Shown here: positions 3 through 30,936 of the stretch, piece after piece
Layout: each line of letters begins with the position of its first letter
Numbering within the stretch: position 1 is the stretch's first letter
Virus record (IMG/VR): IMGVR_UViG_3300027704_000097
Location: 1 to 30,936 of that record
Source of the DNA: a virus
Strand: one strand, 5' to 3'
DNA length: 30,936 bases
The notes under the pieces: model-generated
What the model saw: the letters and a program-made list of their open reading frames with translations, nothing else
Databases searched by the model: none
Told to the model about the DNA's origin: nothing
Made by a program: the position numbers and the translations under genes

Positions 3-1610
3 CTTCCAGATGAGACACCGCGTGATGCATACAGACGCGTCGCAAATGCTGTTTCGAGGCGTTTAAACAAGCCAGAGATGGCAGATAAATTCTTCGACTA
101 CATATGGAACGGTTGGTTATGCTTAGCATCTCCTGTGTTGTCTAATACAGGCACAGACAGAGGCTTACCGATTAGTTGTTTTGGTATAGATGTAGCTGAT
201 TCAATATATGATATAGGTACTAAGAATTTAGAGATGATGTTGCTAGCTAAACATGGTGGAGGCGTTGGTATTGGTATTAACCAAATCAGACCTGCAGGTG
301 CAAGCATTACAGGCAATGGCACATCTGATGGTGTAGTACCTTTTTGTAAGATATATGATTCAACTATATTAGCAACAAATCAAGGATCAGTTAGACGAGG
401 CGCAGCTAGTGTTAATCTAAACATAGAGCATGCAGACTTTGAAAGCTGGTTAGAGATAAGAGAGCCTAAAGGTGATGTCAATAGACAATCACTTAACATG
501 CATCAATGTGCAGTTATTGGTGATAAGTTTATGCGTAAGTTAAGTGCTGGAGATAAAGTTGCAAGAAGAAAGTGGAGTGCATTATTACAGAAACGTAAAG
601 CAACAGGTGAGCCTTATATTATGTTTAAAGGTAATATAAACAAAGTAAATCCTCCAGCATATAAAGACAATGCCTTGAAGGTGTTTATGACAAACATATG
701 CTCTGAGATAGCATTACACACAGATGAGAACCATAGCTTTGTATGTTGTCTGTCTAGCTTAAACTTAGCTAAGTATGATGAGTGGAAAGATACTAACTTA
801 ATATACGATAGTACTTTCTTCTTAGATGGTGTAATGGAAGAGTTTATACAGAGAGCTAAAGGCTTGAAAGGATTTGAAAATGCTGTTAGATCTGCTGTAA
901 AAGGTAGAGCCGTAGGTCTAGGCGTTTTAGGTTGGCATACATATCTACAAGAAAAGCATCTACCATTTGAGGGATTATTAGCACAACATGAAACACGAAG
1001 AATATTTAGCCAAATTAAAATTGAGAGTGAACGAGCTAGTATGGCTCTTGCTAATCAGTACGGGGAACCGCTCTGGTGTGTTGGTACGGGATTTAGGAAT
1101 ACTCATCTTAGAGCTATCGCTCCTACTGTTAGTAACAGCAAGCTTAGTGGTAATATTAGTGCCGGCATTGAGCCTTGGGCTGCTAATGTATTTACTGAAC
1201 AGAGTGCTAAAGGCACTTTCATACGTAAAAACCCTACTCTGGAAAAAGTCTTAGATAAGTTAGGTAAAAATACCAGTGAGATTTGGGAGAAGATATTAGC
1301 TGACGGTGGATCCGTTCAGGATGTCGAAGGACTCGACGATGATACTAAGGAGGTATTTAAAACCTTTAAGGAGATCAATCAACTAGAACTAGTTAATCAA
1401 GCAGGTATAAGGCAACAGTATATAGATCAGAGTGTTAGCTTGAATTTAGCTTTTCCCTCAGTAGCAGATCCTAAGTTTATAAACAAAGTGCATCTTGAGG
1501 CTTGGAAGAAAGGTATTAAAACCTTATATTATATGAGAACTGAATCAGTTCTGCGTGGAGATATAGCCGAAAGAGCTATGGACGAAGATTGTCTTAGCTG
1601 TGATGGCTAA
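3..1610 (+). CDS. nrdA: Class I ribonucleotide reductase large (alpha) subunit, 5' partial
   Basis: This enzyme reduces ribonucleotides to deoxyribonucleotides, supplying DNA precursors for phage replication. The reading frame is open from the first bases of the window, upstream of the first Met codon at 78, and that stretch reads as protein typical of the family (LPDETPRDAYRRVANAV). The gene is therefore cut by the window edge and 78 is not its start. Visible hallmarks are the first active-site cysteine in SCFG (177-179), the radical-site triad N-x-C-x-E (693-707), the partner cysteine in VCCLSS shortly after, the GIEPWAANVF loop near 1165-1195, the paired tyrosines of the radical-transfer path (YYMRTES, 1527-1532), and a C-terminal redox pair CLSC (1590-1601). 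The Tyr pair and CLSC tail indicate class I, which needs a NrdB partner; none is in the window. Any N-terminal ATP cone would lie outside. It is the only plus-strand gene and converges on the virion operon. Confidence 0.97.
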   Translation, partial: LPDETPRDAYRRVANAVSRRLNKPEMADKFFDYIWNGWLCLASPVLSNTGTDRGLPISCFGIDVADSIYDIGTKNLEMMLLAKHGGGVGIGINQIRPAGASITGNGTSDGVVPFCKIYDSTILATNQGSVRRGAASVNLNIEHADFESWLEIREPKGDVNRQSLNMHQCAVIGDKFMRKLSAGDKVARRKWSALLQKRKATGEPYIMFKGNINKVNPPAYKDNALKVFMTNICSEIALHTDENHSFVCCLSSLNLAKYDEWKDTNLIYDSTFFLDGVMEEFIQRAKGLKGFENAVRSAVKGRAVGLGVLGWHTYLQEKHLPFEGLLAQHETRRIFSQIKIESERASMALANQYGEPLWCVGTGFRNTHLRAIAPTVSNSKLSGNISAGIEPWAANVFTEQSAKGTFIRKNPTLEKVLDKLGKNTSEIWEKILADGGSVQDVEGLDDDTKEVFKTFKEINQLELVNQAGIRQQYIDQSVSLNLAFPSVADPKFINKVHLEAWKKGIKTLYYMRTESVLRGDIAERAMDEDCLSCDG

Positions 1611-1647: not shown

Positions 1648-1676
1648 AAAGCCGGTCATAACGATCGGCTTTTTTT
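1648..1676 (+). terminator. Rho-independent terminator after nrdA, at the convergent gene junction
   Basis: AGCCGGTC (1650-1657) pairs with GATCGGCT (1663-1670), giving 8 bp with one G-U wobble around a 5-base ATAAC loop. Two further A-T pairs extend the stem, and a T-run follows (1670-1676). It lies 37 bases after the nrdA stop. On the minus strand the same hairpin is followed only by a weak TTTAGTATT, so it may also slow transcription from the virion operon, less efficiently. Confidence 0.88.
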
Positions 1677-1800
1677 ATTTCTTAACGCAGTTATTTACCA
1701 TCTTAGCTTTACCGCCTTTTGTTTTCTTACCACTAGGTGATTTCTTTTTACCTTTAGCTACGTAACCTGCCCAGCAAGTGTTTTTTCCTTTCTTTTTCAT
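1675..1800 (-). CDS. Small Lys-rich two-cysteine protein, 41 aa
   Basis: The reading frame runs from ATG at 1800 to TAA at 1675-1677. The product is strongly basic: it starts MKKKGKNTCWAGYVAKGKKK and ends VNNCVKK. It has an early CWAGY motif and a late NNC motif, so one Cys lies at each end of a Lys/Gly-rich middle. Short CW-x-GY ... C peptides of this kind recur in marine phage genomes, from my general knowledge; I know of no assigned function. Its start overlaps the stop of the upstream gene by ATGA, which argues for a real, translationally coupled gene. It is the last gene of the operon and its stop codon touches the convergent terminator. A nucleic-acid-binding or packaged basic peptide is possible but unproven. 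Confidence 0.72.
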   Translation of the reverse strand: MKKKGKNTCWAGYVAKGKKKSPSGKKTKGGKAKMVNNCVKK

Positions 1801-1922
1801 TTCTTCTTAGGTTTAGTATGACTGTGTTTTTTCTTTTTTAATGCTAGATGTTTTGCATATGTGTTAGCCATGGTTCCTTTACCAGACGGACTATACATCA
1901 TGTGTGGTTTAAATTTTTTCAT
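1797..1922 (-). CDS. Small His/Lys-rich basic protein, 41 aa
   Basis: The reading frame runs from ATG at 1922 to TGA at 1797-1799. The N-terminus is MKKFKPHMMYSPSGKGTMAN and the C-terminus is a Lys/His-rich tail (KKKKHSHTKPKKK). There are no cysteines and no membrane segment. Both ends overlap neighbours through ATGA: its start sits in the stop of the 53-aa gene and its stop in the start of the 41-aa two-cysteine gene. That arrangement is hard to explain unless all three are translated. I do not recognise a family. The charge suggests binding to nucleic acid or another polyanion, which is inference only. Confidence 0.68.
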   Translation of the reverse strand: MKKFKPHMMYSPSGKGTMANTYAKHLALKKKKHSHTKPKKK

Positions 1923-2080
1923 TTCTTATTATTATATGAGAATAAAATATTCATTGCATCTCTACGACCCTCACATCCACAAGGGATATTTAACTCTTTA
2001 GATACTTTATTGACAACTTTTTTAATACCAGTTGCTTTTGTGAACTTTTCTATACTATCTCCTAATCCTCTTGATTTCAT
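1919..2080 (-). CDS. Small CGC-motif protein of unknown function, 53 aa
   Basis: The frame can be read from a GTG at 2125, but that start would overlap the upstream gene by 41 bases. ATG at 2080 lies 4 bases after the upstream TAA and fits the tight spacing of this cassette, so I chose it. The product begins MKSRGLGDSIEKFTKATGIK and ends with a CGCEGRRDAMN motif. This GLGD-IEK-TKATGIK ... CGC-xRR pattern resembles small proteins seen in other marine and Bacteroidota phages, from general knowledge; the function is unknown. The two close cysteines could bind a metal or form a disulfide. Its TGA overlaps the next ATG. Confidence is high that it is a gene and low for any role. Confidence 0.75.
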   Translation of the reverse strand: MKSRGLGDSIEKFTKATGIKKVVNKVSKELNIPCGCEGRRDAMNILFSYNNKK

Positions 2081-2084
2081 ATAA

Positions 2085-2333
2085 TTAACATTTCCATCTT
2101 CTACGAGCTGCCTTACCCCTTTCACTTGTCCAACTCTTTGATCTAGAACAAAAAGCTGTTCTTCTTTTAGCTGCTTTACTACCTTTTTTAACCTTTCCCG
2201 TAACAGCTGTTTTTAACTTGCTACCAGGATTCTTTTTTTTATATGCAGCTACACCTTTAGCTGTCATACCTGCACCTTCTTTAGTTGTTCTAAAGTTTCT
2301 ACCTGCTCCTTTTGTTGTTTTCCTGATAGCCAT
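2085..2333 (-). CDS. Small basic protein with AGMTAKGVAAYKKKNPGSKLKT motif region, 82 aa
   Basis: The chosen start is ATG at 2333, giving MAIRKTTKGAG; a TTG three codons upstream also fits the frame but is less likely. The protein is very rich in Lys, Arg, Gly and Ala. A central motif runs GAGMTAKGVAAYKKKNPGS, followed by KLKTAVTGKVK, and the tail holds an FCSRS segment and ends RRRWKC. This pattern is widespread in marine phages and cyanophages, and I think it belongs to the DUF6321-like group, a family memory I could not check. The gene begins 2 bases after the DUF5675 stop and ends 4 bases before the next gene. A DNA- or RNA-binding role would suit the charge. No reaction can be assigned. 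Confidence 0.8.
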   Translation of the reverse strand: MAIRKTTKGAGRNFRTTKEGAGMTAKGVAAYKKKNPGSKLKTAVTGKVKKGSKAAKRRTAFCSRSKSWTSERGKAARRRWKC

Positions 2334-2335
2334 AA

Positions 2336-2782
2336 TTAACAAATATCATCTACGATAGTTACCTCAACACTATCAGCATCAGACATTTTTTGATATAATC
2401 TCTTAAATGCTGGTCCTGAGGTAGTTAAGTTGTTATCATTATTAAACCTATTAGACTTAATAGAATCACCTACCAACAAACAACCATCAGTATGATCGTC
2501 ATCGTTACCTATATGAATATAGACGTATTGAAAATTAGGTACATCCTGTAACATAAAGTGAAAATCAAACCAAGGATATTTTTTACGATACTTCTCAGTT
2601 AATCCACTAAGCACTTCACGCTTTTCTACCTTGTAAATACCTGCCGGTATACGTGTTTCACCTTTTATTTTATCGGTACGATATTCATCCTCTAGCGTAA
2701 AGCATTCAAACACTCCATCAGCAAGTAATATTCCTAATGTCGAGTCTGCTCCTGAGCTAAATCTTTTTAGTTCTAGTTTCAT
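2336..2782 (-). CDS. DUF5675 family protein, possible cell-wall-active lysis protein
   Basis: The 148-aa product matches the DUF5675 pattern: an N-terminal beta region (MKLELKRF), a FTLEDEYR strand, a RIPAGIY turn, then HFMLQDVPNF and YVYIHIGNDDDHTDGCLLVG near residues 87-105. His90 followed by a Gly-Cys pair (Gly100-Cys101) resembles the HG ... GC spacing of L,D-transpeptidase active sites. An acyl-enzyme cysteine is therefore conceivable; this is my inference and not an established function. There is no signal peptide. It starts inside an ATGA overlap with the membrane-anchored coiled-coil gene upstream. No other endolysin is recognisable here, so this gene and its neighbour are the best lysis candidates. 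The family call is fairly secure, the activity is not. Confidence 0.8.
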   Translation of the reverse strand: MKLELKRFSSGADSTLGILLADGVFECFTLEDEYRTDKIKGETRIPAGIYKVEKREVLSGLTEKYRKKYPWFDFHFMLQDVPNFQYVYIHIGNDDDHTDGCLLVGDSIKSNRFNNDNNLTTSGPAFKRLYQKMSDADSVEVTIVDDIC

Positions 2783-3096
2783 CTGTCTTTCTTTCTAGCT
2801 AATTTATCTGTCATTTTTTCAATATGCTTTTGCATCTCTTTAACTTCTTCTTCAAGATCACTAATGTGCTCTTTAGTCCAGTCGTTCTTGAGATCATATT
2901 CTCTTCTATCTATAGATGCAGGCGGTAATAGCTTTGCTTCATCTATATCCATTTGCAACTTAACATACATGCTACCTAACGTAAAAACTGCTGCCACTAT
3001 CATACCGATAGTCTTCAATGTTAAGTGAAAATCAGGTTTACCATCTCCATCAACGTCAACCCCCATATTTGTACCTCCTCCTAATTCTTTTGCCAT
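2779..3096 (-). CDS. Membrane-anchored coiled-coil protein, holin- or spanin-like
   Basis: The 105-aa product has a short N-terminal region with a calcium-loop-like DVDGDGKPD (residues 14-22), one hydrophobic segment TIGMIVAAVFTLGSMYV (about 29-45), and a charged C-terminal helix (about 70-105) rich in Glu, Lys and heptad hydrophobics, likely a coiled coil. One membrane span plus a coiled coil resembles inner-membrane spanins and some holin or chaperone proteins. The DUF5675 gene follows with an ATGA overlap, consistent with a lysis pair. Two starts are possible: ATG at 3096, or ATG at 3066, which is preceded by AGGAGGAGGT. I kept 3096 because the other genes here do not use such sites and these bases also encode LGGGT. 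Confidence 0.72.
   Translation of the reverse strand: MAKELGGGTNMGVDVDGDGKPDFHLTLKTIGMIVAAVFTLGSMYVKLQMDIDEAKLLPPASIDRREYDLKNDWTKEHISDLEEEVKEMQKHIEKMTDKLARKKDR
3073..3082 (-). promoter_or_regulatory. Shine-Dalgarno-like AGGAGGAGGT, could set an internal start at 3066
   Basis: AGGAGGAGGT lies 6 bases upstream of an in-frame ATG at 3066. It is the only strong match to the anti-SD sequence near a start that I found in the window. It also encodes Gly codons of the longer product, so it may be coincidental. If used, the protein would be 95 aa and start MGVDVDGDGKP. Confidence 0.35.
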
Positions 3097-3154: not shown

Positions 3155-6100
3155 CTAGTTCTTTTGTGTCTTTTTTCTATTCGCAGCTCGTTTTTTCTCT
3201 ATATATTCTATTGAATTTTTATATTCTATCTCCTCAACAGCTGATCTTTTATTTGTTTTAGAGTTTTTCTTTCTAGTTGCAGCGGATTTTTTATAACCAG
3301 CTTCTCTTCTTTCGTCTTGAGCTCTTTCTTTTATTAAAACACCATCTGAGTTTTTAACTCCAAGATCATATGTACCCCATCCAAACAATAAGGCTAACTT
3401 CTGCCAAGCTTTTACAGAATTATCTAACACATAGGTTAAGTTAGAAACTTTTTTAACAGCTCTATCTAATGGTATATTAGTAAAAACGCTAGTAGCAAGT
3501 CCACCAATCATGTAAGCAGGGTTATCAAATGTGTTGCTAGCACCTTTGAATCCAAAGCTTTCTTTTTTACCAGTTTTTGTTGGATTTAAAGTACCAGGGT
3601 AAAAACCTCTTTCTTTTATTAAATCTTTATTGTATTTTATTGTTTGTTTTATTTGATATGCTTTTCTAAACTTAGATCCAATAGATGGTGCTACGTTAGC
3701 TATAGCTATACCTACATATGCATAATCTATACCATAATCTTTACTCTCTTGTCTGTATACTTCAAATGCTGTATTCTTAACCATAGCGGCTATTGCTCCA
3801 TGATAGCCAGATCCTTTTAATATAGTATCTACCATACTATTTATTACTCTTATTTCTTTCTTTTCAACTTCTTCCTCATCATCAAATGACATGGCAAACA
3901 AAGCACTAGATAGTGAGTTAAATATAAAGTTTTGAGCAAAACCGTAATAAACTATTTTAGAAACGTTTTCTGCAGGATTTCCTCTACGATTAGCTAAGTC
4001 TAATGCCGCTTTCTTCATCATTCTGTTATATTGCATGGATGTGTTTTGGAAAGACAAAACAAACCTACTAAACTTATTTGCTTGTTGCTCAGATACCATC
4101 GAGGGATCAGAAGACTGCTGATGCTTATCAGTTAACTCAGAAAAATCCTCAAAAGCTTTTGCTTCAGCTTCTTTCAGATCCCACCCTTGTTTTTGATAAG
4201 TTTTAGTTCTATTTCTATAGAAAGTAGCTCCACCAGCAGAAATAGCTAAACCATCAGCAGCTTGTGTAGGTGTAAAACCAATTTTAAGTAGGAATCTTAA
4301 AGCTTTCTTATAAGAATCTGTAGAACCCTCCACGCTGCTTGCCATCTCAGCTTGATTAACATCTATTTTAAATCCTTTTCTTCTTTGTTTTAGTTTGTCA
4401 GAGTTAAATAATGTTACAACATCTCTCCAATACTGTGGTTGATTAGCAAATGCTGTACCAGCTTTTAATAAATTGTTATCACTCCAGTTAACATAATTAG
4501 CTGCGGATAGTGTTTGTAATGCAGCTGATCTACTATTAAAAAACATTATAGTACCAACAGAACCATTTAAAAAGTCAGCAAAAGCATTTGCTCTAGCATC
4601 TTCAGATCCAAAATTTCGGTTAGTACCTTTTTCCATCCTAAAAAGCATGTCTTCTAATGATTGCTTAAATCTAGTACCATATATGGCTTCTATTTTATTT
4701 AGGTTTTGCTTGTTAAATATTTCCCTATAATTATCCGTAAATTCTTGTAGGAATTGTTTTCTACCTATTTTGTCTGAAATACTATTTAAATCACTAGCTA
4801 TGTTATCAACCAACCAATCCCTACCTGGTTCTATGTAACCTTTTTCTTGACCAGTAATAAGACCTAATTTTCTAGCAAACTGTTGTATTTCTCTATCTTT
4901 AGCTATAGCGAAAAAAGCATCATTTATTAATTTTCTACCTTCAGCTGTATCTGGTTCTAAACCAGTTTCATTCATATCAAAACCTCCACTTTTCCAAAGA
5001 AATATTCTTATAGCTTGATCATAAGTAAAATCAGAGTCAGGCATTTTTTTACTTAGCTTTTTAGATACCTTAGGATACTTTTTTCTTAGATCTTTGTAAT
5101 CACTTTCTATTTTCTGCTTAGCAGACTCTAGTTTTGCTATACCTCTTTTATACGGTTTGTTTAATGTTTCTTCAAAAAACTGTCCATGAAGCTCTCCTCT
5201 AGAACCCTCACCCATAAAAGCGTACATTAGACCCATGAAATCATCTGCTGAAGGAGGAACAAAGAATTTGTACTTACCTATTGTAGCACCTTTCTGTCTA
5301 GCTATAACTTCTGGTATAATCTTATTAGCTGATGCTAATTTATTTTTTTTACCCTTTGTTTCTTCTATTATACCATTAAATCTACCACTTAAATCACCAT
5401 CACTTTTAGAAAGCTCATCTTGCTTTGTTTCTTGTTTTTTTACTTCTACTATTTTAAGAGGAGGTAATTTTTCTTCACTTTCTTGTATTGCTTTAATAAC
5501 TCTTTTATCATTATACCTAGCGGCTAAATAATATCCATCAACCATCTTAGCTTTTATAGCTTTGTTATTAGCGTCTTTAGGCAAATGTGATTTAAAATAT
5601 TTACTTATGATTTTATCATATGTTTTAGGTATAATAGCAACTCTAAAATCTTCCATTATTTGATCAAACGTAGTATTATTACCGTCTTTATTTAATATAT
5701 AAAGACCAAGTATTTCTTGTATAACTTGCCTAGCGGGTTTAACATGCTCATAAATATAATCCTTATCATTATTTGAGTTTAAATTTTCAATTTGTAAATT
5801 TGGTATTGCAGCTGTTCTAACTAAACCTTCTCCGTTAGAATTAAATGTCATTAGTATCATACCAAGATCATTTTTGCTTATTTTATTTTTTTCATATAAA
5901 TCTTTTAAAGTATCAACTATTTGTCTAAATCCTTCTCTTTGATCTTCTGCTTGACGAATTCTATCTTGTTGTTGTTCGCCGAACTCAACTTCATATCGTT
6001 GCCTAAAAACAGTAGGTAATGTTGTTTCAACATCGTCTATGATTGCCGATTGCGAACCTGATTTATAAGATGCATTATCTATGAAATTTTTGAAAAAATC

Positions 6101-9100
6101 AGGTCTACCTCCTATTAAAAAATACTTTAACGAACCTTTTGCTATATCAAATCCACCTGTTTCTAAATTTAATTTAAAGCCACCTGATTTAAGTCCATAA
6201 GCTCCTTTTACTGTAGGTCCTACATATTTTAAAGCTGAATCAACACCTATTCTGTCAATTAAAAGTTTAAATGATTCTCTAGCAGATTTTATTTGTTCTT
6301 CACTTCGAAAATCTAAACTTCCTTTTTCTAAATCTAATATACCTTGAAAAGTTCTTTTAAAAGTTCTACCTAAAGTTTCTTCGTATATGTACTTTCCTAA
6401 AGTAAGTTTACTTTTGCTTTTCTCCCAAGCTTTAGCAGATTTTTCCATCTGCTCCAATATAAGATCTTCATATTCAAAGTTATAGGTTGCAAACGCTTCT
6501 TTGTATGCCTTTTTTATATCTTTTGGATTATTTAATGTTATAAAACTCTCAGAACCTTTTTTAAAATTATCGTATGTTTTTCCATACATTTGATCAGCAA
6601 TAGCTTGACTCAACATTAATTCACTTTTGCCAGCTCCAATATCAGCTATTTGCTGACTACTTCCTTCATCAGGTTTCAATTGTTCTCTAACTGTAGTGTT
6701 AGTAACTAACTTACCAAACATTATGGCTAAACCTTTAGCTGTCTGAGCTTGTGGTGATTGTATAAAAACCTTATCAGGTATGTTTCCATCAGGTAATATA
6801 CCAAGCTCTTGTCTAAACTGTTCTTTAGTAACTGGAGTTAAGTCATATATAGGTAAACCAGATGCTGTATCGATTCTATCACCTTTTTTATAAAAAGACG
6901 TTAACACATTAGTAGGCAATCCAGTAGATGTACCATATAACTTTTGAGTTACTGCTTTATCAACTACAGCACCTTTAGGAAATATCTTTACAAAATCATC
7001 AAACATTTCATCAAGATTTCTCATTGTATTCTTGAGTTCACCTTGAGTAAAATTGTTTTTAGGAATTAATTTTTTAACTGGTATCTGAAATCTTTCAGCT
7101 GTTGTTTCTGGAGATAAATCAGGTAATGATTTAAAGCTTGTTTTTTCAGAACCAAAATCAGGCATATTATTACTTATTGTTTCCGTGGCTTTGCCAGATA
7201 AACTATCATCCATCAAAGTTCTTGGATCAATTAAACCCCCAACTCTCTGTGCTTCAGCTTCAGCATCTTCTTCTGTTTGTGTAGTTTCTTCTTGAGTTGT
7301 TTGAAAGTCTAAACTTGTTTCAGCTAAAAATTCAGTATCAACTGTTGAATAACTTTGTTCAAACTTTTCCTTTAATATACCTTCAAAAAGCTTAACAGCT
7401 CTCATAGGTAATATCTTGGCTACATATGCAGCTATTGGTACAGATCCGTCATATGTTCTAAATAAATCAACTAATCCGCCTTCATCAAACTTAAGCCTAT
7501 CAGACATTTCCTGTTCGTTGTATCCAGGTACAGCTCTTCTTTTATTTACTATTTTAGATATTAAAGGGTCAAATAAACCTTCTTCAATAGCATTCCAAAC
7601 ACCTTGTGAACCTTCTTCCTTGTATATATCTTGTGCTCTTTTGGATTGTTCTTTCATCCTAGGTGTTATCTCAGATTTACTAACACCTTCTTTTACTTCA
7701 CCTTTTGATTTAGTAAATACTTCTTTATTTCCTCTAATAGCATCTAAATCTTCTTTACTTAAACTACCATCGCCTAGTTTTTTAGCAATACCACCAATAA
7801 ATTGTATTACATCTGTTTCACCTTGAAAATCTATTTTAGCTTTATCACCTCTTTTACCAATCATCATTTTATTAACTAATGATGAAAATAATCCAGTAAA
7901 ACCTCTAGATTGTTTAGATTTAAGATCTATAGTGCCATCAGCTACTCTTTCAATAAAGTTAGCAACAATCTCACTTGGTTTTCTATCAGCTGTTTGATTA
8001 CCAAATAAACCACTAAACATCTTGTCATAAGCCGCTTTGTTTGTCTCTCCGGTCCATCTAATTATAGTATCAGCTAACTCTTTCATTTGTTTAGAGTTGT
8101 TATCTATCTTTAATAATTCAGTAAAAATACCATGACCTATTTCGTGTACACCAGTTCTGGTTCTACGATTACTTACCATTTGATCTCTTATAAGAACTAC
8201 TTCATTTTTTTGATTAGGATCAGCTGTTTGTAAATTATAACCGTTAGAGTTTTTTACAACGTTTAGTTTAATTGTTGATGGTTGTCTTTTTTCTTTTTCA
8301 GCTTTTTTATTTTCTGCTTCTTGAGATTCATTTCTTCTTTTATCTTCATAAGCCTGAGCTTCCTCAGGTGTTTTAAATTCAATTACTTTAGCATTTAAAT
8401 AATCAACAGAACCTAATCCAGTTTCTATTATTAATTCTTTTGTATTAGCTATATCAGCTGTAACTTGTCTTTGTATGTATATATCAAAAGATTTCTTTTT
8501 TAAATCTTTATCACTAACTATATCTTCTGGCGATAAACCTTTATCTTCTTTTATTGCTCTTTCAGCTTCTTTTCTTATATCGTCGTATTGCTTAGGATCT
8601 GATTCTTGTAAATAATGATACTGATTGCCAAAGTCTTTTGGGTTTTTAAATAAATCAATAGCTTGTTGGTAACGATCAAATCTTTCTTTTAACGGCTTTA
8701 GCTTTTCGTTTTTAGACTGTTGACTTTGATCACTGTTTATTATTTTTTCAGCTTCAATTCTTAATGTTTCCTGTGTATCTATGGCACCAACATGAAGTTT
8801 ATAGCTTTCCTCTGATAACTTGTCCCTCATGTTACCATCTAATTCATATAGAATGTCGTCGTTTTGTTCTTTTAATTCTTTTACTTTTTTATCTAATGCT
8901 TTTTTGTCTTCTTTAAAATCAGTTCGTTCTTTTACTTTTTCACCTTTCAAAGCCGCTACTCTTTCAAAGAAAGGTATTTCAGGATGCTTACTTTTAAATT
9001 CAGCATTTAACTTACCCATCTCTGATATGTTTTTTCTGTATGTAGAGTATGAATCATAATCAGCAAACTTACTAGCTGCTGCTGCTCCAAGTACAGGTGC

Positions 9101-10903
9101 TGCAGACATGCCAAATCCAAATAAGCCTCCAGAAAAAACAGCATGACCTACATTTTCTAATACTGGTCTACCAGTTAGTAGGTTTTGAGCTATTGAAGTT
9201 AAACCCTCAGTTGAAGACTCCATAAAAGTAGGTACTACAACCCCGTTCCACGCATTTTCTTTTATGTACTTTCTAAACCCAACTTTAGCTACTTCTCTTT
9301 TTCCAGCTCTACTAAATAATGTTGCTCCTTGTTTTAATATTTTAGCTGTTGGTAAACTACCTAGTACACCTTCAGCTAATCCAAAACCAGTTCCAATTAA
9401 AAACTTTTCAGTATTACTATATTCAATATCATTAAACTTATATTTATCTTTTTTGGACATCATCTCCTCGTAATCCATGTCTGATATTTGATTACCAGCA
9501 GAAGATACACCAATAATACCTACACCAGCAACGCCTGTAGCCATCATAGTAGCTATTATAGGTGCCTGTGTACTTATTTCTTGCATTAGAAACTCACCAA
9601 AGTTACCATCTTTAAAAGCATCTTTAAACTGAACATCAGGAGCATAGTTAAATCTTTCTTTCTCCATTTCAATCCTATGCTGGATCTGAGTTCTTTTCAT
9701 CTTGTCAGCTGCTACTATACCTAGTACACCTAATCCCATACCAGCACCAGTATTAACACTGGCCTCAGCTATATAAGCTGCTCCTCCTAACACTATTCCC
9801 TTAGTGACGTTATAAGCTGAGTTTGCATTTTTACTTAAAGAATCATAATCTCTTCTTAGTAAATCAAATTCTAGTTCTAAATCAAACTTCTCTTTTAAAT
9901 TACTGTTATAATTTTCTCTGTTATTTTGATATGAATCATACATACCGCTTATAAGATTAGATTCTTTACTTACAAATTCATTAGCTATAGTATATTTGTC
10001 AACTATTGATTTTGGTACTTTTTTACCATTAAAAGTAAATTGCTCTTCACCTTCAACACCAGATCCAAATATAAAATTAGGATCATTTAAGTCTTTTTCA
10101 ATTTTTTCTTTGTATTTAAATTGTTCGGACTCTTCAAGTAAAGTTTGTCTAGATATAAAAGAATCATAATCTTTATTTACTTTTATTTGATTTTCATCAA
10201 AGTTGTAGTCATCATTTAAGGTTTTGTAATCTAACCTATTTTTACCTAAAAATTCTTTTTGTTTTTTTGGTGTTAATGATTTAATAAATTGATCTGTCTC
10301 ATACTTCTTTAAATCTACTATTTCTTGATCAGCTAATCTTCTTCTTAAAGTAGCCTCAAGTTCTTCGTCAGACGGTACCTTATTGTTTATTTCTGATAAT
10401 TCTATCTTAAGATTTTTAAGTTCTTTCTCGTAAGGTTTTTTTATTATTTTTTGATCTTGAGTGTAAACACCCATACCTAAGTATTGACCACGGTTCACTT
10501 CTTCTACTTCGTCAAAAAGAAATTGATCACTATATTTATCTTCTATTTCTTTAGTTAGTGTTTTAACATCTAAACTTTCATTAGCATTGTCTAATTGTTC
10601 ATATGTAAAATCTTGATCAACAAAATCCTTTTTAGGAACATATACACCCATACCGGCATAGCTGGGTAAAGAACTTTCTTGTTTTTTTACTTTTTGCTTT
10701 TCTTTTTCAGGCTTTTTCTCTTCTATGTTATTTGTTGCAGAATCAAAATCAGTGTCAAATTGTTTTCCTTGATCAAGTTTTATAGCCTCTGAAGTTATTT
10801 TACTTGACTTCATATAATCCTCAACACTTAACCCTTCGGATTCAGCATTAGTTTTTATTTGCTCAAAAGATATTTCAGAACCGTTTAAATAGAATTTATT
10901 CAT
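3155..10903 (-). CDS. Giant internal virion protein with zincin (HEIGH) domain, 2582 aa
   Basis: The start MNKFYLNGSEISFEQIKTNA resembles the N-terminus of very large marine phage virion proteins. Several parts are visible. A GMGVY motif occurs twice near residues 84 and 144. Four hydrophobic Gly/Ala-rich stretches lie at about 365-400, 440-470, 500-520 and 585-615. A metallopeptidase motif HEIGH falls at 920-924, with a probable third zinc ligand at Glu978 (PSEIVANF). Long charged helical regions follow, with a C-terminal part (about 2100-2480) holding more hydrophobic helices such as GFAQNFIFNSLSSALFAMSF. The tail is very basic and the stop is TAG. Size and position downstream of the tail and ejection genes suggest an internal protein ejected with DNA, perhaps forming a membrane conduit and cutting host or phage protein. 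I see no RNA polymerase DxDGD motif and no clear lysozyme domain. Confidence 0.85.
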   Translation of the reverse strand: MNKFYLNGSEISFEQIKTNAESEGLSVEDYMKSSKITSEAIKLDQGKQFDTDFDSATNNIEEKKPEKEKQKVKKQESSLPSYAGMGVYVPKKDFVDQDFTYEQLDNANESLDVKTLTKEIEDKYSDQFLFDEVEEVNRGQYLGMGVYTQDQKIIKKPYEKELKNLKIELSEINNKVPSDEELEATLRRRLADQEIVDLKKYETDQFIKSLTPKKQKEFLGKNRLDYKTLNDDYNFDENQIKVNKDYDSFISRQTLLEESEQFKYKEKIEKDLNDPNFIFGSGVEGEEQFTFNGKKVPKSIVDKYTIANEFVSKESNLISGMYDSYQNNRENYNSNLKEKFDLELEFDLLRRDYDSLSKNANSAYNVTKGIVLGGAAYIAEASVNTGAGMGLGVLGIVAADKMKRTQIQHRIEMEKERFNYAPDVQFKDAFKDGNFGEFLMQEISTQAPIIATMMATGVAGVGIIGVSSAGNQISDMDYEEMMSKKDKYKFNDIEYSNTEKFLIGTGFGLAEGVLGSLPTAKILKQGATLFSRAGKREVAKVGFRKYIKENAWNGVVVPTFMESSTEGLTSIAQNLLTGRPVLENVGHAVFSGGLFGFGMSAAPVLGAAAASKFADYDSYSTYRKNISEMGKLNAEFKSKHPEIPFFERVAALKGEKVKERTDFKEDKKALDKKVKELKEQNDDILYELDGNMRDKLSEESYKLHVGAIDTQETLRIEAEKIINSDQSQQSKNEKLKPLKERFDRYQQAIDLFKNPKDFGNQYHYLQESDPKQYDDIRKEAERAIKEDKGLSPEDIVSDKDLKKKSFDIYIQRQVTADIANTKELIIETGLGSVDYLNAKVIEFKTPEEAQAYEDKRRNESQEAENKKAEKEKRQPSTIKLNVVKNSNGYNLQTADPNQKNEVVLIRDQMVSNRRTRTGVHEIGHGIFTELLKIDNNSKQMKELADTIIRWTGETNKAAYDKMFSGLFGNQTADRKPSEIVANFIERVADGTIDLKSKQSRGFTGLFSSLVNKMMIGKRGDKAKIDFQGETDVIQFIGGIAKKLGDGSLSKEDLDAIRGNKEVFTKSKGEVKEGVSKSEITPRMKEQSKRAQDIYKEEGSQGVWNAIEEGLFDPLISKIVNKRRAVPGYNEQEMSDRLKFDEGGLVDLFRTYDGSVPIAAYVAKILPMRAVKLFEGILKEKFEQSYSTVDTEFLAETSLDFQTTQEETTQTEEDAEAEAQRVGGLIDPRTLMDDSLSGKATETISNNMPDFGSEKTSFKSLPDLSPETTAERFQIPVKKLIPKNNFTQGELKNTMRNLDEMFDDFVKIFPKGAVVDKAVTQKLYGTSTGLPTNVLTSFYKKGDRIDTASGLPIYDLTPVTKEQFRQELGILPDGNIPDKVFIQSPQAQTAKGLAIMFGKLVTNTTVREQLKPDEGSSQQIADIGAGKSELMLSQAIADQMYGKTYDNFKKGSESFITLNNPKDIKKAYKEAFATYNFEYEDLILEQMEKSAKAWEKSKSKLTLGKYIYEETLGRTFKRTFQGILDLEKGSLDFRSEEQIKSARESFKLLIDRIGVDSALKYVGPTVKGAYGLKSGGFKLNLETGGFDIAKGSLKYFLIGGRPDFFKNFIDNASYKSGSQSAIIDDVETTLPTVFRQRYEVEFGEQQQDRIRQAEDQREGFRQIVDTLKDLYEKNKISKNDLGMILMTFNSNGEGLVRTAAIPNLQIENLNSNNDKDYIYEHVKPARQVIQEILGLYILNKDGNNTTFDQIMEDFRVAIIPKTYDKIISKYFKSHLPKDANNKAIKAKMVDGYYLAARYNDKRVIKAIQESEEKLPPLKIVEVKKQETKQDELSKSDGDLSGRFNGIIEETKGKKNKLASANKIIPEVIARQKGATIGKYKFFVPPSADDFMGLMYAFMGEGSRGELHGQFFEETLNKPYKRGIAKLESAKQKIESDYKDLRKKYPKVSKKLSKKMPDSDFTYDQAIRIFLWKSGGFDMNETGLEPDTAEGRKLINDAFFAIAKDREIQQFARKLGLITGQEKGYIEPGRDWLVDNIASDLNSISDKIGRKQFLQEFTDNYREIFNKQNLNKIEAIYGTRFKQSLEDMLFRMEKGTNRNFGSEDARANAFADFLNGSVGTIMFFNSRSAALQTLSAANYVNWSDNNLLKAGTAFANQPQYWRDVVTLFNSDKLKQRRKGFKIDVNQAEMASSVEGSTDSYKKALRFLLKIGFTPTQAADGLAISAGGATFYRNRTKTYQKQGWDLKEAEAKAFEDFSELTDKHQQSSDPSMVSEQQANKFSRFVLSFQNTSMQYNRMMKKAALDLANRRGNPAENVSKIVYYGFAQNFIFNSLSSALFAMSFDDEEEVEKKEIRVINSMVDTILKGSGYHGAIAAMVKNTAFEVYRQESKDYGIDYAYVGIAIANVAPSIGSKFRKAYQIKQTIKYNKDLIKERGFYPGTLNPTKTGKKESFGFKGASNTFDNPAYMIGGLATSVFTNIPLDRAVKKVSNLTYVLDNSVKAWQKLALLFGWGTYDLGVKNSDGVLIKERAQDERREAGYKKSAATRKKNSKTNKRSAVEEIEYKNSIEYIEKKRAANRKKTQKN

Positions 10904-24585: not shown

Positions 24586-26025
24586 TTAACCTTTAATCAA
24601 CATGAAGTTATTAGCTCCTTGAGTAACTAAACATCTTTCAGATAGGTAATGTACTTCCATTACATCTTTTCCAGAAGTTTGTGCTCCAACAGAACCAGTA
24701 ACCCAAGTCTTCATCTTGCGATCATCAGTTTCAGAAGATCTGTAACGTACATGTAGGAAAGGACGAGTTAAGTTCTTACCTAGCTGCTCATCATATACAG
24801 ATGAAACACCAGCAGGAATAACAACTCCTCTAATGGCTCCAGTATTTGAATCATTAATAAATCCTCTAGTTCCTTGATCGTTCAAGTATTTCCAATCAGA
24901 CTTGTAAAAATCATAAGATCCTCTACGGAAACCTGAGAAACCAAGATTCAACGCCATGTCCTCGCTATTGCTGAATACTCCAAAAGAACTACCAGCTGCA
25001 TAAGCGCTGTTAATGCTTCCTAGCATGTCATCAATTTTAAGAGCTGTAGGTCTATTCAAAAACATCATGTTCTCTTCAATAGCACCATTTTTATCAAACG
25101 TGGCTAACATAGCATCAAACTCAGCAAAGTTAGTTGCAGGTGTTCCAGAATCAAGACCATCTGTTACATGACCACGAGATGTGATAGCAGAAAATAATCC
25201 TTCAGTACCAAAGCCTTTAGCAGCTCCGTTAATAGAACCATCAGCAGTTGAATTACCTTCAACACCTTTAACAGATTCCATCATTGACATTTCTAGATAA
25301 TCAGCAAATCTTGCTCTAGTATCACCTTCAGCTTTCAAATACCATAAGTATCCTGACTGACCTTCTTCTCCAGTAACTTCAACCCATCCAATAGCAGACG
25401 TATCAGATCCAGAAACTTCATAAAAATCCTTTAAGATAATATGCTTGTTGTTTAGTGATTTGAACTGAGGAGCGTTAGCAACTGATCTGCCTTCCTTACC
25501 TTTTCCAAATTCTGAACCATAAACAAGTATTTGATAATTTCCTGCACCTGCATCCGCTGCAAAAGCAAAGAATTGAGTTGTATAAGAAAGAATAGTAACA
25601 GCAGCATCACTTACAGCTGAAACATAACCGTTAAACTGCTTGTTTTGAGTTTTACCACCTACAAGAACTTGATCTCCTACTCTAATGCCGTGTGCTGCTC
25701 CAACGGTATTACCATCTACGTCATTTACAATAGTAAAAACGTTAGCGTCATCAGCTGTTTCATTAGTAGCCGTGTAAGCTAGGTGTAATCTACCTTGCTC
25801 AGACCATACGACTTGATCAGATTGTGAGGATTCTTCAGCTCCTACTTGACTTAAAAAACCTGAAATAGTCCTATTACCGTATATTTCAGCTTCTTTTTCC
25901 ATCAAATCAGGTAGATACTGCTGCGCCCAACCTTCATTAGCGGTCGAAGCTAGATCTAAATAATTTGTTGATAATGTTTGTTTGCGTGGTGCCGTATCTG
26001 GACCACTTGCACTTGTAATTGCCAT
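24586..26025 (-). CDS. Major capsid protein
   Basis: The 479-aa size, acidic to neutral composition, position two genes after the portal and a strong terminator right behind all fit the major head protein (HK97 fold expected). The N-terminus is MAITSASGPDTAPRKQTLST, followed by NEGWAQQYLPDLMEKEAEIY and SDQVVWSEQGRLHLAYTATN (about 70-90). Later blocks include an Ala/Gly beta region (about 110-160), TRARFADYLEMSMMESVKGV (about 240), MFLNRPTALKIDDMLGSINS and FLHVRYRSSETDDRKMKTWV (about 420), ending with a compact strand pair before MLIKG. Similar capsid proteins occur in uncultured marine phages. No protease gene is apparent in the neighbouring part of the operon, so the N-terminus may not be cleaved; that is only an inference from what is in the window. 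The leader is A-rich without an SD. Confidence 0.9.
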   Translation of the reverse strand: MAITSASGPDTAPRKQTLSTNYLDLASTANEGWAQQYLPDLMEKEAEIYGNRTISGFLSQVGAEESSQSDQVVWSEQGRLHLAYTATNETADDANVFTIVNDVDGNTVGAAHGIRVGDQVLVGGKTQNKQFNGYVSAVSDAAVTILSYTTQFFAFAADAGAGNYQILVYGSEFGKGKEGRSVANAPQFKSLNNKHIILKDFYEVSGSDTSAIGWVEVTGEEGQSGYLWYLKAEGDTRARFADYLEMSMMESVKGVEGNSTADGSINGAAKGFGTEGLFSAITSRGHVTDGLDSGTPATNFAEFDAMLATFDKNGAIEENMMFLNRPTALKIDDMLGSINSAYAAGSSFGVFSNSEDMALNLGFSGFRRGSYDFYKSDWKYLNDQGTRGFINDSNTGAIRGVVIPAGVSSVYDEQLGKNLTRPFLHVRYRSSETDDRKMKTWVTGSVGAQTSGKDVMEVHYLSERCLVTQGANNFMLIKG

Positions 26026-27312: not shown

Positions 27313-29736
27313 TTACCTAGGTTCAAACGAACCTAAGTCAAAACCACCCAATGTATCATTACCTGATGATTCAAAATTCTTAGGAGGTTTTTCGTTTTTT
27401 CTTTGATCAATCAACTCTGATTGTTGACTGGCTTGTATCTTAGTTCTTTTGTCTTTTCTGTCTTCTTTTTCTTTTTCTTTACCTTGTACTGATTGAACCT
27501 CCATTTGCTTTAACTGCATGTTCATTTGAAACTCTAATTGCATCAGCTCTTTTTTAGCTTGAATTTCAACCTGCATTTTCTGCATGTCTAGTTGTGACTT
27601 TAGCTTTTCCAATTCACTATCTATTTGAATCAATGCTTGCTGCTTTTTAACCTCTGATTGCGCAGCTGCTTCTTGTTGTTGAGCATTTGCTTGAGCCTGA
27701 GCTTGAACGTTTTGTTGGGAAATCTCTTGATCTTTCTTTTGTTTTTTCTGTCTTCTTAATTTAAGTAATTGATTTGCTAATTTAATGTTATTTATTTCTC
27801 TTAAATCTATAGCGTCTTCTAAATCAATGGTTTTTTGTTGAACAGCTACTTGAATATTATTTTCAAGCATTTGCTTTTCTTCTTCGTCTGGTTTTAGTTC
27901 TATGAATATACCAAAGTCGTGAATATGTAAGTTAGACATTTCTTCTAACGTAGCAACGTTATGAACACCTATACTTTGTATAAAAGCCTCTCTTGTAGGA
28001 GAATACTCTATTATGTCTGATATTCTTAACGACAAACACTCTGCTAGCTCGGAAGTTAAATGAACTCCACCTTGAAGTATATGTCTTGTTGCTGTATTTG
28101 AGTTTGCTGCTGCTAGCTTTTGTACACCTACTAATGCTTTAGGGTCAGGTGTGCTACCATCTCTAGCTTCATTCAATCCAGTTACGTCTCTTATCATTTG
28201 TAGATAATAATTATACGTCTGAATAAGTGTCTGCATTTTTTGACCACCACTACCACTAGATATCTCTTGAATTGGAATCTTACCTGGATTCATATCACCG
28301 TCAGATGTTAGTGATCTACCTATAATACTACCAGTTTGAAAGAACATATTAAGCGCTTCCTGCGGGTTGTAGTTAGTCCCATTACCTAAATCAACTTCTG
28401 CTATACCATCAGCATCTAAGTAAACACCATCTGGTATCATGCGAGATAAAACTTGCTGTAGCTTTAAATGAGTTAATTGAATCATATCAGCAAAGCCAGT
28501 TATTCTGCTTACTAGTGATTCTATTTTGCCATTATACATTCTAGGTGCAACAATACTGTAATTCATTTTTACTTTAGTATTGTCACTCTTTGGCCTCATC
28601 ATGTTCTTAGCCATTTCCCACTTTAGTAACTTCTTAGTACCAAGTATTAAAGCTCCTTCGTATAACACTTCTAATGATCTAGATACTTTTTCAAAGTTTT
28701 CATCAAGTACTTCTGTAGGAGGATTAAATTGATCATCTTTTATTAGTATTTTACTAGCTCCAGTGCTAGTTGTTTTAACCTTATAAACCTCATTCATGTA
28801 GGTCTTATAGTTAAAATACAATACCTTTATTTGGTTAGAATCAGAGTTATCACCGTTTAGGTTAGCTCTACTGTACCCACGTTTTTTAGAACTTGGTTGT
28901 GTTGTTATTTCTTCTAAATCCTCAGTTGTTAGATCAGGAAATTGTTTTTTTAATTCATTAATAGGTATTGTTTTTACTTCACCAACATAATATATATCTT
29001 CAAACTCTGGTGATTCAGTATATGAATATACTAAATTAGCAGGATCCACGTATTCTACTTTAACACCTTCTGATTTTGAAAACGTATTTTTAACAGCACC
29101 TATACCTATAACAGTTAAATCATAGTTTATTCTTTTTCTAATAGAATTGTACTTGTTTTTGTTAAGTAAAACGTTTATAGCTTGCTCTTCAGCTAATTCT
29201 ACGTTTTGCTTATATGACAATTGCATGTGCAACTCTAGTTCTTCCTTAGAATCTGGAAGTTCATCTTCTGGTGTTGATGAAAGATTTATATTAAAGTTTT
29301 GTCTAAAAAAATTATCAAAGTTTTTTAATCTCATGTCAGTCAATATACTTTCCATATATTCTGTCCTCTTGCTAACTCCATAAGGATCTTGAGAATAAGC
29401 TTTTATATCAAACGTTCTTTCAGATATACCATTAACAACAATATCAACAAACTTAGGTATTATAGGTATTGGTTTCCAGTCTAAATTAAGATAAGACAAA
29501 TCACCATTTATAGATAACTCGTCTTTATATTTCTGTGTAGACTGCTCTCCTCTAGCATATAGTCTAAGTCTATGATAACTTGTTTCGTTACTTTTAAATC
29601 TATTTCCTCCAGACTCAGTGTCTATCCATTCAGACTCTATAGCTTGGCCTACCTTTAGACCATATTCCATACTTACCTTCTCTAAATCGCTAACTACTTG
29701 ACTAGGAAATAAATTACTACTAATTGAATGAGCCAT
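27313..29736 (-). CDS. Portal protein
   Basis: This 807-aa protein follows terminase by 4 bases and precedes the assembly protein. The portal forms the ring at the capsid vertex through which DNA is pumped and released. Portal-like features are the N-terminal helical region and YLNLDWKPIPIIPKFVDIVV (about 85-105), VEYVDPANLVYSYTESPEFE and DIYYVGEVKTIPINELKKQF (about 225-265), and the clip/wing part leading to MIRDVTGLNEARDGSTPDPK (about 510-530), a block typical of portals near the crown. The last 190 residues or so are a long Gln/Lys/Glu coiled-coil tail with a Gln-Ala segment (QAQAQANAQQQEAAAQSEVK, about 675-695), longer than in compact portals. The large size matches portals of big podoviruses, including crAss-like ones. 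Confidence 0.92.
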   Translation of the reverse strand: MAHSISSNLFPSQVVSDLEKVSMEYGLKVGQAIESEWIDTESGGNRFKSNETSYHRLRLYARGEQSTQKYKDELSINGDLSYLNLDWKPIPIIPKFVDIVVNGISERTFDIKAYSQDPYGVSKRTEYMESILTDMRLKNFDNFFRQNFNINLSSTPEDELPDSKEELELHMQLSYKQNVELAEEQAINVLLNKNKYNSIRKRINYDLTVIGIGAVKNTFSKSEGVKVEYVDPANLVYSYTESPEFEDIYYVGEVKTIPINELKKQFPDLTTEDLEEITTQPSSKKRGYSRANLNGDNSDSNQIKVLYFNYKTYMNEVYKVKTTSTGASKILIKDDQFNPPTEVLDENFEKVSRSLEVLYEGALILGTKKLLKWEMAKNMMRPKSDNTKVKMNYSIVAPRMYNGKIESLVSRITGFADMIQLTHLKLQQVLSRMIPDGVYLDADGIAEVDLGNGTNYNPQEALNMFFQTGSIIGRSLTSDGDMNPGKIPIQEISSGSGGQKMQTLIQTYNYYLQMIRDVTGLNEARDGSTPDPKALVGVQKLAAANSNTATRHILQGGVHLTSELAECLSLRISDIIEYSPTREAFIQSIGVHNVATLEEMSNLHIHDFGIFIELKPDEEEKQMLENNIQVAVQQKTIDLEDAIDLREINNIKLANQLLKLRRQKKQKKDQEISQQNVQAQAQANAQQQEAAAQSEVKKQQALIQIDSELEKLKSQLDMQKMQVEIQAKKELMQLEFQMNMQLKQMEVQSVQGKEKEKEDRKDKRTKIQASQQSELIDQRKNEKPPKNFESSGNDTLGGFDLGSFEPR

Positions 29737-29740
29737 ATTT

Positions 29741-30936
29741 TTACTTTATTATTGTTGATGAATTTCCTTCGTTTTTATATCTTGAGAAACCAATACTTAT
29801 ATTTTGTTTTTCTTTATTTACGTTGGGTGAATACAGATGCCTGTTACAAGCCATAACTGCTAAACCTGAGCTTATAGCTGCATCAAACTTTGTTCTATTG
29901 TTTATGTCAAATTTTGACCAATCATTAAGAGTTTCATTGAAATATAAATCGCCATAATTACCATTTTGCTTTAAACCCACGTGTTCTTGTATATACATTT
30001 CAATAGCGGCAGCGTGTGATTGCTTTATATCTTCACTAGAGTTAGGTATACCACCTATTTCTTTTTCTGTTGTAGATAATTTATTCCAAACCTTGTCAGG
30101 TCTATTCATTGAATAACCTCTATAACCTCTACGTCTTATGTAATATAAAAGTCTAGGTTTATTGTTTTCAGCTAGTATTGGCATACCATAGAATATTAAT
30201 GCCATTAAAACATCTTCAAAGAAAATCTCAGCGGTCTGAGGTCTAGCAACATATTCTAAGAAAAAGTGATTTGGAGGAGCATCTTCCATGGAAAACTTGG
30301 TGAGGCCATGAAGAGCTCCTTTGGAACCTTGCCCGTCGACAGTCCCCGAAATATCATAACTATCACAACCAAAAGCACCGATATGTAAATTACCAGGTGA
30401 TTTATAACCATTTCTATCTACTATATTATTTTGTAGATGTAGCGGTGGCGTCCAGCTTATGTTAAACCTACCCTTAGCATCAGGATAAAATATAACTTTT
30501 GAATCCTTAACGCCATTGACCCATTGAAAATTACCTCTAGTAGTTCTTGCACTACTTGATATGTCTTCGTTGTAATCTATTTGTTCGTAGATCTTAGCTA
30601 AGTTAAATATACTATTCTTAGTTTCATCTCGGAAAGCATGCTCTTCGGTTCTAGGAAATTGCCTATAAAACTCATTAAGAGCATCTCCATCACTCTTTAG
30701 ACCATCAACTTCATTTTGCCAATGTTCTAGTATTCCTATATCTATTGTTTCTCCGTATGGTCCTTTGACCTCTGTTTCAGGAGTGTCAAAAACTGGTTGA
30801 CCATATTCGTCAATAAAACCTTCATAATTCCACTCCATAGGAATAAAAAGACTGTAAAGACCAGTACTGGTTTGTCCGTTTTTGTTTCTTTTATTGACAT
30901 CTGATCCTTTATATAATTTTCTAAAATTATCTCCTC
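29741..30936 (-). CDS. terL: Terminase large subunit, 5' partial (nuclease half)
   Basis: TerL is the packaging motor: an ATPase pulls DNA into the capsid and a nuclease cuts it. The window keeps the C-terminal nuclease part. The first in-window Met is at 30838, but the frame stays open to the right edge and reads as protein (DVNKRNKNGQTSTGLYSLFI), so the ATPase domain and true start lie outside. Counting from that Met, the RNase H-like nuclease begins with GAFGCDSYDIS (Asp159 and Asp162). A second region is IFFEDVLMALIFYGMPILAE, and a last acidic site is FDAAISSGLAV. The RRRGYRGYSMNRPD block lies between them. It is followed after 4 bases by the portal gene, as usual. Confidence 0.93.
   Translation of the reverse strand, partial: GDNFRKLYKGSDVNKRNKNGQTSTGLYSLFIPMEWNYEGFIDEYGQPVFDTPETEVKGPYGETIDIGILEHWQNEVDGLKSDGDALNEFYRQFPRTEEHAFRDETKNSIFNLAKIYEQIDYNEDISSSARTTRGNFQWVNGVKDSKVIFYPDAKGRFNISWTPPLHLQNNIVDRNGYKSPGNLHIGAFGCDSYDISGTVDGQGSKGALHGLTKFSMEDAPPNHFFLEYVARPQTAEIFFEDVLMALIFYGMPILAENNKPRLLYYIRRRGYRGYSMNRPDKVWNKLSTTEKEIGGIPNSSEDIKQSHAAAIEMYIQEHVGLKQNGNYGDLYFNETLNDWSKFDINNRTKFDAAISSGLAVMACNRHLYSPNVNKEKQNISIGFSRYKNEGNSSTIIK

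Follow-up and report, generated by a model that had tools for sequence, protein, structure and literature searches.

The four small genes and their surroundings

The window, i.e., the whole 30,936-base stretch of viral DNA that was analyzed, carries a cassette of four small genes on the minus strand. In the order of transcription, these encode an 82-aa basic protein with a DUF6321 domain and two cysteines, C62 and C82 (2333..2085), a 53-aa protein of a Bacteroidota-phage family with an invariant CGC motif (2080..1919), a first 41-aa basic protein with the HMMY...HTKPKK pattern (family G41A), which contains no cysteine in the window (1922..1797), and a second 41-aa basic protein with the CW.GY...NNC pattern and two cysteines, assigned to the family 'NCVP' (1800..1675). 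The assignments were based on Pfam and PHROG for the 82-aa protein, on IMG/VR relatives (alignment A3) for the 53-aa protein, on an HMM family for the first 41-aa protein, and on phmmer and an HMM family for the second.

The 82-aa gene is separated by 2 bases from the preceding DUF5675 gene and by 4 bases from the 53-aa gene, and the two following junctions (53/41 and 41/41) are ATGA overlaps. Both overlaps, at 1919-1922 and 1797-1800, read AAGAAATGAAAAA, where codons for C-terminal lysines also form the start region of the gene that follows. Lengths, strand, coordinates, and spacings were exactly those given in an earlier note on this DNA.

The upstream neighbor on the same strand is a DUF5675 protein (2336..2782; PF18925, E 7.2e-29), recognized as such in the earlier note, followed by a 105-aa protein that is holin-like by weak resemblance (2779..3096; phrog_20 holin, E 0.15) and is kept in close relatives. 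Further upstream, also on the minus strand, lie a virion structural protein that is probably the major capsid protein (24586..26025; phrog_13704, E 2.9e-96), the portal protein (27313..29736; phrog_6547, E 1.2e-154), and the terminase large subunit, which starts the virion operon and is cut by the window end (29741..30934; phrog_6681, E 2.8e-90). The cassette was thus found at the end of the virion operon, as had been noted, with the convergent gene for the ribonucleotide reductase large subunit next to it on the plus strand (3..1610; PF02867, E 7.9e-93). Since the T-run of a terminator-like hairpin at 1648..1672 lies on the plus strand, this hairpin serves the reductase side. No Rfam elements or tRNAs were found in the window. 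Just upstream of the lysis-like genes, near the operon end, an ORF of 2582 aa (3155-10903, minus strand) occupies the place where a polyvalent injected protein would be expected; two pieces of it that were searched had no Pfam match.

In tblastn searches, the probable major capsid protein showed 47% identity to that of Manatee Spring podovirus MW202828.1 and 44% to that of Maribacter phage Panino, with Flavobacterium and Cellulophaga phages also near. As the nearest relatives of this protein are those of flavobacterial phages, the host of the window phage is probably a marine flavobacterium.

All four cassette ORFs are genes under purifying selection. The dN/dS values, determined by the Nei-Gojobori method for the window together with at most four close relatives, were 0.06-0.17 for the 82-aa gene, 0.06-0.26 for the 53-aa gene, 0.106 for the first 41-aa gene (one pair), and 0.025-0.16 for the second, all well below one and in the same range as for the DUF5675 gene (0.035-0.17). 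In IMG/VR, at least 599 matching stretches were obtained for the 82-aa protein and at least 578 for the 53-aa protein, so that the reading frames are conserved in hundreds of viral contigs. Low dN/dS and the depth of relatives together ruled out chance ORFs, and the genes would escape ordinary gene-length cut-offs, as the earlier note had pointed out for the two 41-aa ones.

The description of the proteins as rich in lysine and arginine also held. The K+R fraction was 0.33 for the 82-aa protein, 0.23 for the 53-aa protein, and 0.32 and 0.37 for the first and second 41-aa proteins, compared to 0.06-0.17 in 15 further proteins encoded on the minus strand of the window. The net charge ranged from +13 to +25 for three of the four proteins and was +7 for the 53-aa protein. 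Cysteines had been reported in three of the four, and each of these three contains two, with none in the first 41-aa protein.

Bead families, alone and in fusions

In each of two PHROG profiles, phrog_727 and phrog_10346, consecutive stretches matched several of the small proteins. The source of these fused profiles is the T4-like cyanophage protein T4-GC119 (S-E7, S-RIM8, S-B43, S-SM2, S-SM1), whose successive domains, here called beads, are DUF5872, DACYHKV, NCVP, and DUF6321 (phrog_727). DUF5872 (PF19197) is a sister bead of DUF6321 (PF19846), and to our knowledge, Pfam gives no function for either of them. Searches of the literature on T4-GC119 by name gave no result, and no mention of DUF6321 was found in the papers retrieved for DUF6321, DUF5872, and DUF5675. 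Among the matches listed for cyanophage internal or capsid-targeted proteins, prohead-protease polyproteins, and disulfide-linked protamine-like phage proteins, none was seen to describe the beads.

The 82-aa protein scored 38.3 bits against DUF6321, above the curated cut-off of 28.5, and matched phrog_10346 with an E of 6e-19. An AF2 model predicted three helices (pLDDT 83, pTM 0.61). No relatives with solved structures were found by sequence for this protein or for the GC119 alignment, and the model matched no PDB fold at E <= 0.001. In a viral structure library, mainly DUF6321 proteins were retrieved, including both matches at E <= 0.001. Part of a 1143-aa AAA-domain protein from an uncultured phage (BFVD A0A6J5R4H4) also matched the 82-aa fold, at E 1e-2 and 41% identity, and beads may be attached to enzymes as well.

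Neither the 53-aa protein nor the two 41-aa proteins gave a Pfam match above cut-off. For the first 41-aa family, 21 distinct full-length domains were collected by HMM, four without cysteine and 17 with two; the protein of the window is cysteine-free, and most of its relatives carry a cysteine pair. The second 41-aa protein found L085, L005, L088, and L026 by phmmer, and its iterated profile recovered the standalone members in L086 and L087. The standalone members of this family matched the fused NCVP family and belong to it; the matches of the window protein itself to PHROG were weak (best E 0.22). No tblastn match among named phages was obtained for either 41-aa protein of the window, and the L086 relative used as query returned 276 records there.

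The 53-aa protein stands apart from the others: it is less basic, has the CGC motif, and was never seen fused to them in the sequences examined here. Across 28 aligned sequences (A3), the residues S3, G5-D8, T14, G18, C34-G35-C36, and N44 were invariant, the CGC motif being present in 28/28. The protein was predicted to be an alpha-helical mini-protein (pLDDT 79); the best sequence match among solved structures had an E of 0.82, and the model matched no PDB fold at all. In 45 of the 62 loci that hold both, its gene immediately follows the DUF6321 gene. In bacterial genome bins, 15 loci with relatives were found, mostly on Bacteroidota contigs, and in three of them the domain was lengthened to 124-162 aa, with no other beads. 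One such case is a prophage of the cultured Galbibacter pacificus, where the domain lies within a 162-aa protein two genes before a terminase small subunit (L347:3890-4378 and 4503-4964).

The arrangement of the standalone genes was examined in 235 loci on viral contigs, each with one or more standalone bead genes, after four repeated contigs had been dropped; as these loci were gathered by bead searches, the counts describe arrangement and not natural frequency. At least two bead families were present in 177 of the loci, and 40 gene orders were distinguished. The earlier note had expected a set of genes conserved in fixed order, which was not the case: all four window genes occur together only in L031 and L086, and the order of the window is shared by L086 alone, so that a fixed four-gene operon was ruled out. 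The first 41-aa gene stands before the DUF6321 gene in nine loci and after it in 10, and the second in 16 and 15, respectively. Among the 77 loci found via the 53-aa protein, another bead was present in 58 and none in 19, and among the 80 found via the 82-aa protein, another bead was present in 42.

In seven close loci, the DUF5675 and 105-aa genes were constant, and the genes after the 82-53 pair varied. L086 carries the four genes of the window, the first 41-aa gene is absent from L085 and L005, and L087 holds eight or more small genes, including those for DACYHKV, LYTDENP, PAP2 phosphatase, and LRDWF proteins. Balancing of total charge was considered as a purpose of the cassette and is disfavored, since the number of such genes in close relatives ranges from three to at least eight, and repertoires varying so widely argue against a fixed charge-neutralizing dose.

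Genes for PAP2-family phosphatases were observed inside bead cassettes at L087:5717-6256 (PF01569), L090:5332-5880, and L093:2206-2754, the latter two assigned by ORF resemblance. Additional families of small Lys/Arg-rich proteins, each with about two cysteines, were seen repeatedly in the cassettes (L087:6256-6435, L087:6425-6661, L100:5121-5366) and are probably more beads; the two from L087 had no Pfam match. The sequence A[AG]AAATGA was present at 36/74 ATGA bead junctions versus 39/263 other ORF ends, a control that includes spurious ORFs, and may act as recombination microhomology that helps the shuffling.

Standalone bead genes are about 35-95 aa in length and often overlap, and have been overlooked for this reason. 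The beads are conserved across phages of Pelagibacter, Synechococcus, and Methylophilales. A DUF5872 protein is also listed for the algal virus CpV-BQ1 in the accessible part of PMC12085832, so that one or more bead families may extend to viruses that infect eukaryotic algae.

Fused beads were collected from all loci retrieved; after removal of redundancy, there were 80 multi-bead proteins, 133-1077 aa in length, with 38 bead orders. Three of the four window families, those of the 82-aa and both 41-aa proteins, also occur as domains of such proteins. The DUF6321 and NCVP families were common among them, the first 41-aa family was found in a single protein (KDHEVSM-DUF5872-DACYHKV-NCVP-G41A-DUF6321), and the 53-aa family was found in none of the 80. 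An NCVP bead is also present in an Sf-CH8 protein annotated as cytidyltransferase, a name of the kind used for T4-GC190.

Cysteine pairs, linker sites, and virion proteomes

Cysteines were counted in 606 distinct full-length domains of seven bead families; KDHEVSM, which has no cysteine, and the ribbon-like ZnR, with three cysteines in a 25-aa match, were left out. Every domain contained zero, two, or four cysteines and none an odd number, compared to odd counts in 141/470 non-bead small ORF clusters from the same loci. After thinning at 80% similarity, 0/108 domains were odd, and with slightly wider domain borders, 5/668. For whole standalone ORFs, the count was 72/515, of which 49 were DACYHKV genes with three cysteines, and start-codon extensions perhaps account for part of these odd values. 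Parity is partly built in for families such as NCVP, whose model begins and ends on cysteine.

Pairs were also variable within families. LYTDENP and DACYHKV domains have zero or two cysteines, and DUF5872 domains two or four. The first 41-aa family has zero or two, with the pair sometimes at other positions, and DUF6321 domains have two or four through two different extra pairs. Such joint gain and loss points to the cysteine pairs being disulfides. Disulfides in a phage protein with no evident export signal would in turn suggest maturation outside the cytoplasm, and hence in the virion.

The second line of evidence concerns the linkers between fused beads. The T4 prohead protease gp21 cuts after L/I-X-E (PMC9026906, partial text). 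In the 80 multi-bead proteins, the related motif [LIVMF]xE[AGS] occurred 277 times in 25,887 aa of linker versus four times in 14,470 aa of bead. In the linkers of the 50 proteins that remained after thinning at 70% identity, 170 sites were observed versus 65 +- 7.5 in shuffled sequences, i.e., a 2.62-fold enrichment. The reversed motif gave 1.43-fold and [LIVMF]xxE[AGS] 1.53-fold; replacement of E by D, K, or Q yielded 1.03-, 0.98-, and 0.77-fold, respectively; and [LIVMF]xE followed by other residues gave 1.01-fold. In controls drawn from the same loci (125 proteins after thinning), the motif itself reached 0.82-fold. Shared ancestry inflates the z-scores of the motif, and the argument is carried by these controls.

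With the strict form [LI]xE[AGS], the enrichment was 1.91-fold, some junctions deviating from strict L/I-X-E. Regarding position, 92/170 sites were followed by the next bead at a distance below 20 aa, and [LIVMF]xE was present at most 12 aa upstream of 110/146 bead starts, versus a fraction of 0.22 of linker 13-mers. The linkers between fused beads are thus enriched in sites close to that of the T4 prohead protease, with cleavage there being putative. A leader-like F..F.E stretch was present in only 8/50 multi-bead proteins. By reading, the four proteins of the window contain neither a leader nor an [LIVMF]xE[AGS] site and start at the bead.

Bead-bearing proteins were identified in the virion proteome of CsCl-purified S-CREM2 (Table 3 of PMC10665884, partial text). 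ORF137/gp137 (108049-109521) was detected there with four unique peptides and 4.1% coverage, and ORF160/gp160 (128342-129235) with seven unique peptides and 13.1% coverage; both coverages are low, and the table leaves it unspecified whether the bead parts or the rest of the proteins were sampled. As translated here, the C-terminal end of ORF137 is a DUF6321 bead (E 1e-30), and ORF160 carries DUF5872, NCVP, and DACYHKV beads. Five bead families are held by S-SCSM1_29, annotated as 'virion protein'; mass spectrometry identified 45 virion proteins in S-SCSM1, and S-SCSM1_29 is not named in the available text (PMC9602691). T4-GC15 and T4-GC190 are reported as virion proteins in the consulted part of PMC3037559, and the portion of PMC9964418 at hand contains nothing on bead proteins.

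Two other virion-detected S-CREM2 proteins, gp154 (L335:2109-2969) and gp136 (L334:802-1515), a cytidylyltransferase and a hypothetical protein, respectively, begin with a leader-like F..F..E stretch. This suggests that such starts could predict head-internal proteins of cyanophages.

Proposed role and comparison with known systems

The reading favored here, with a probability only just above even, is that the products of the four genes are small peptides carried inside the virion. They would come from a modular pool of short beads that have two cysteines and are mostly strongly basic; such beads would be cut from a longer protein in cyanomyoviruses and made separately in the window phage. Cyanomyoviruses would cut the multi-bead protein inside the prohead, and the podovirus-like window phage would make equivalent peptides from separate, translationally coupled genes. 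The peptides would enter the head together with the DNA, to which their basic surface would bind, and the cysteine pair would close as a disulfide once the virion leaves the reducing cytoplasm. The peptides may next be injected, like the internal proteins of T4. Packaging of basic peptides had been among the suggestions of the earlier note, and it gained independent though indirect support from the cyanophage fusions near the terminase gene, the S-CREM2 virion proteins, and the protease-like linkers. The fixed four-gene set was given up.

The beads could instead be effectors that are packaged and act in the new host cell, in anti-restriction or take-over like IPI and Alt of T4, their binding of DNA being incidental. 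The hypervariable repertoire, shuffled between close relatives as in arms-race genes, agrees with this, and there are precedents in the basic, packaged, and injected internal proteins of T4 (PMC9026906, PMC9958956, both partial texts) and in the polyvalent proteins, which are multi-domain and injected (PMC5512222, partial text). The beads are, however, strongly conserved across very different hosts and show low dN/dS, unlike typical arms-race proteins, and this explanation is considered rather unlikely.

Unlikely to a greater degree is that the peptides stay unpackaged in the cytoplasm late in infection, as nucleic-acid-binding regulators or as assembly or packaging helpers acting on DNA or terminase before lysis. 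The genomic position of the beads speaks for such a role, in addition to their basic composition. A GC119-type protein is encoded within three genes of the terminase gene in 8/8 annotated cyanophage records examined (S-E7, S-RIM8, S-B43, B23, S-SM2, S-SM1, S-CREM2, S-SCSM1). Among four named phages with a standalone DUF6321 gene, this gene lies two genes from the terminase gene in S-TIP28 and Venkman, and no terminase gene was nearby in the regions viewed of HTVC028P and HTVC010P. The position of the 53-aa domain in the Galbibacter prophage fits as well. A purely cytoplasmic role is opposed by the presence of proteins with beads in the virion proteome of S-CREM2, by the protease-like sites between beads, and by the pairing of cysteines, which is unexpected in a cytoplasmic protein. 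Binding of zinc or another metal by the cysteine pairs, alone as half-sites or in dimers, is very improbable despite the ribbon-like ZnR bead with three cysteines in its matched stretch within the same fused proteins, since two cysteines per domain are too few zinc ligands unless dimeric, no histidine is invariant in alignments A1, A2, and A3, and some families drop both cysteines and keep the remainder.

The 53-aa protein invites a comparison with CXC mimics of thiol-disulfide oxidoreductases. A reduction potential of -167 mV, close to that of protein disulfide isomerase, is given for CGC in the available part of PMC4316792. The 53-aa protein shares the CGC motif, with any redox activity being putative, and it is a matter of speculation that it catalyzes disulfide formation in its neighbors. 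The most far-reaching version, in which marine phages draw on one exchangeable kit of basic, disulfide-locked peptides of the head, made from a prohead-cut polyprotein in cyanomyoviruses or from overlapping mini-genes in podovirus-like phages, and the flavobacterial cassette adds the 53-aa CGC protein as a mini disulfide isomerase that assists in closing these disulfides, is regarded as a long shot.

DUF6321, DUF5872, and GC119 are widespread in marine phages and were previously without assigned function. Assigning them to a single modular set of head peptides with two cysteines would give hundreds of sequences a function open to test. The polyprotein and split-gene forms would constitute a natural experiment on how the same peptides are produced for packaging when a prohead protease is present and when it is absent. 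Provided that the disulfides exist, they would mark proteins that mature only outside the cell and offer a handle for finding internal virion proteins from sequence.

Disulfide-linked protamines are Arg/Lys-rich, cysteine-bearing proteins that pack DNA. The beads resemble them in being strongly basic and in their paired cysteines (even counts in 606/606), with the first 41-aa protein of the window differing in its lack of cysteine; the comparison is one of analogy, with no homology claimed, and condensation of DNA by the beads is putative. Polyvalent proteins likewise consist of several unrelated domains strung together, occur in a late-gene context, and have been proposed to be cut into units, but their domains are large and mostly enzymatic (PMC5512222, partial text), whereas the beads comprise 25-80 aa with two cysteines.

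The T4 proteins IPI, IPII, IPIII, and Alt are likewise small, basic, and head-associated, and the beads of cyanophages are preceded by gp21-like sites. The T4 internal proteins carry a capsid-targeting leader and are cleaved by gp21, whereas the window proteins have neither leader nor site; the beads are also far more widely shared, and the likeness is one of kind, no sequence similarity being claimed. The closest counterpart is T4-GC119, which shares the bead families of the 82-aa and second 41-aa proteins with the window. In T4-GC119, the beads are fused through linkers with protease-like sites, whereas in the window, each bead is encoded by its own overlapping gene with no linker.
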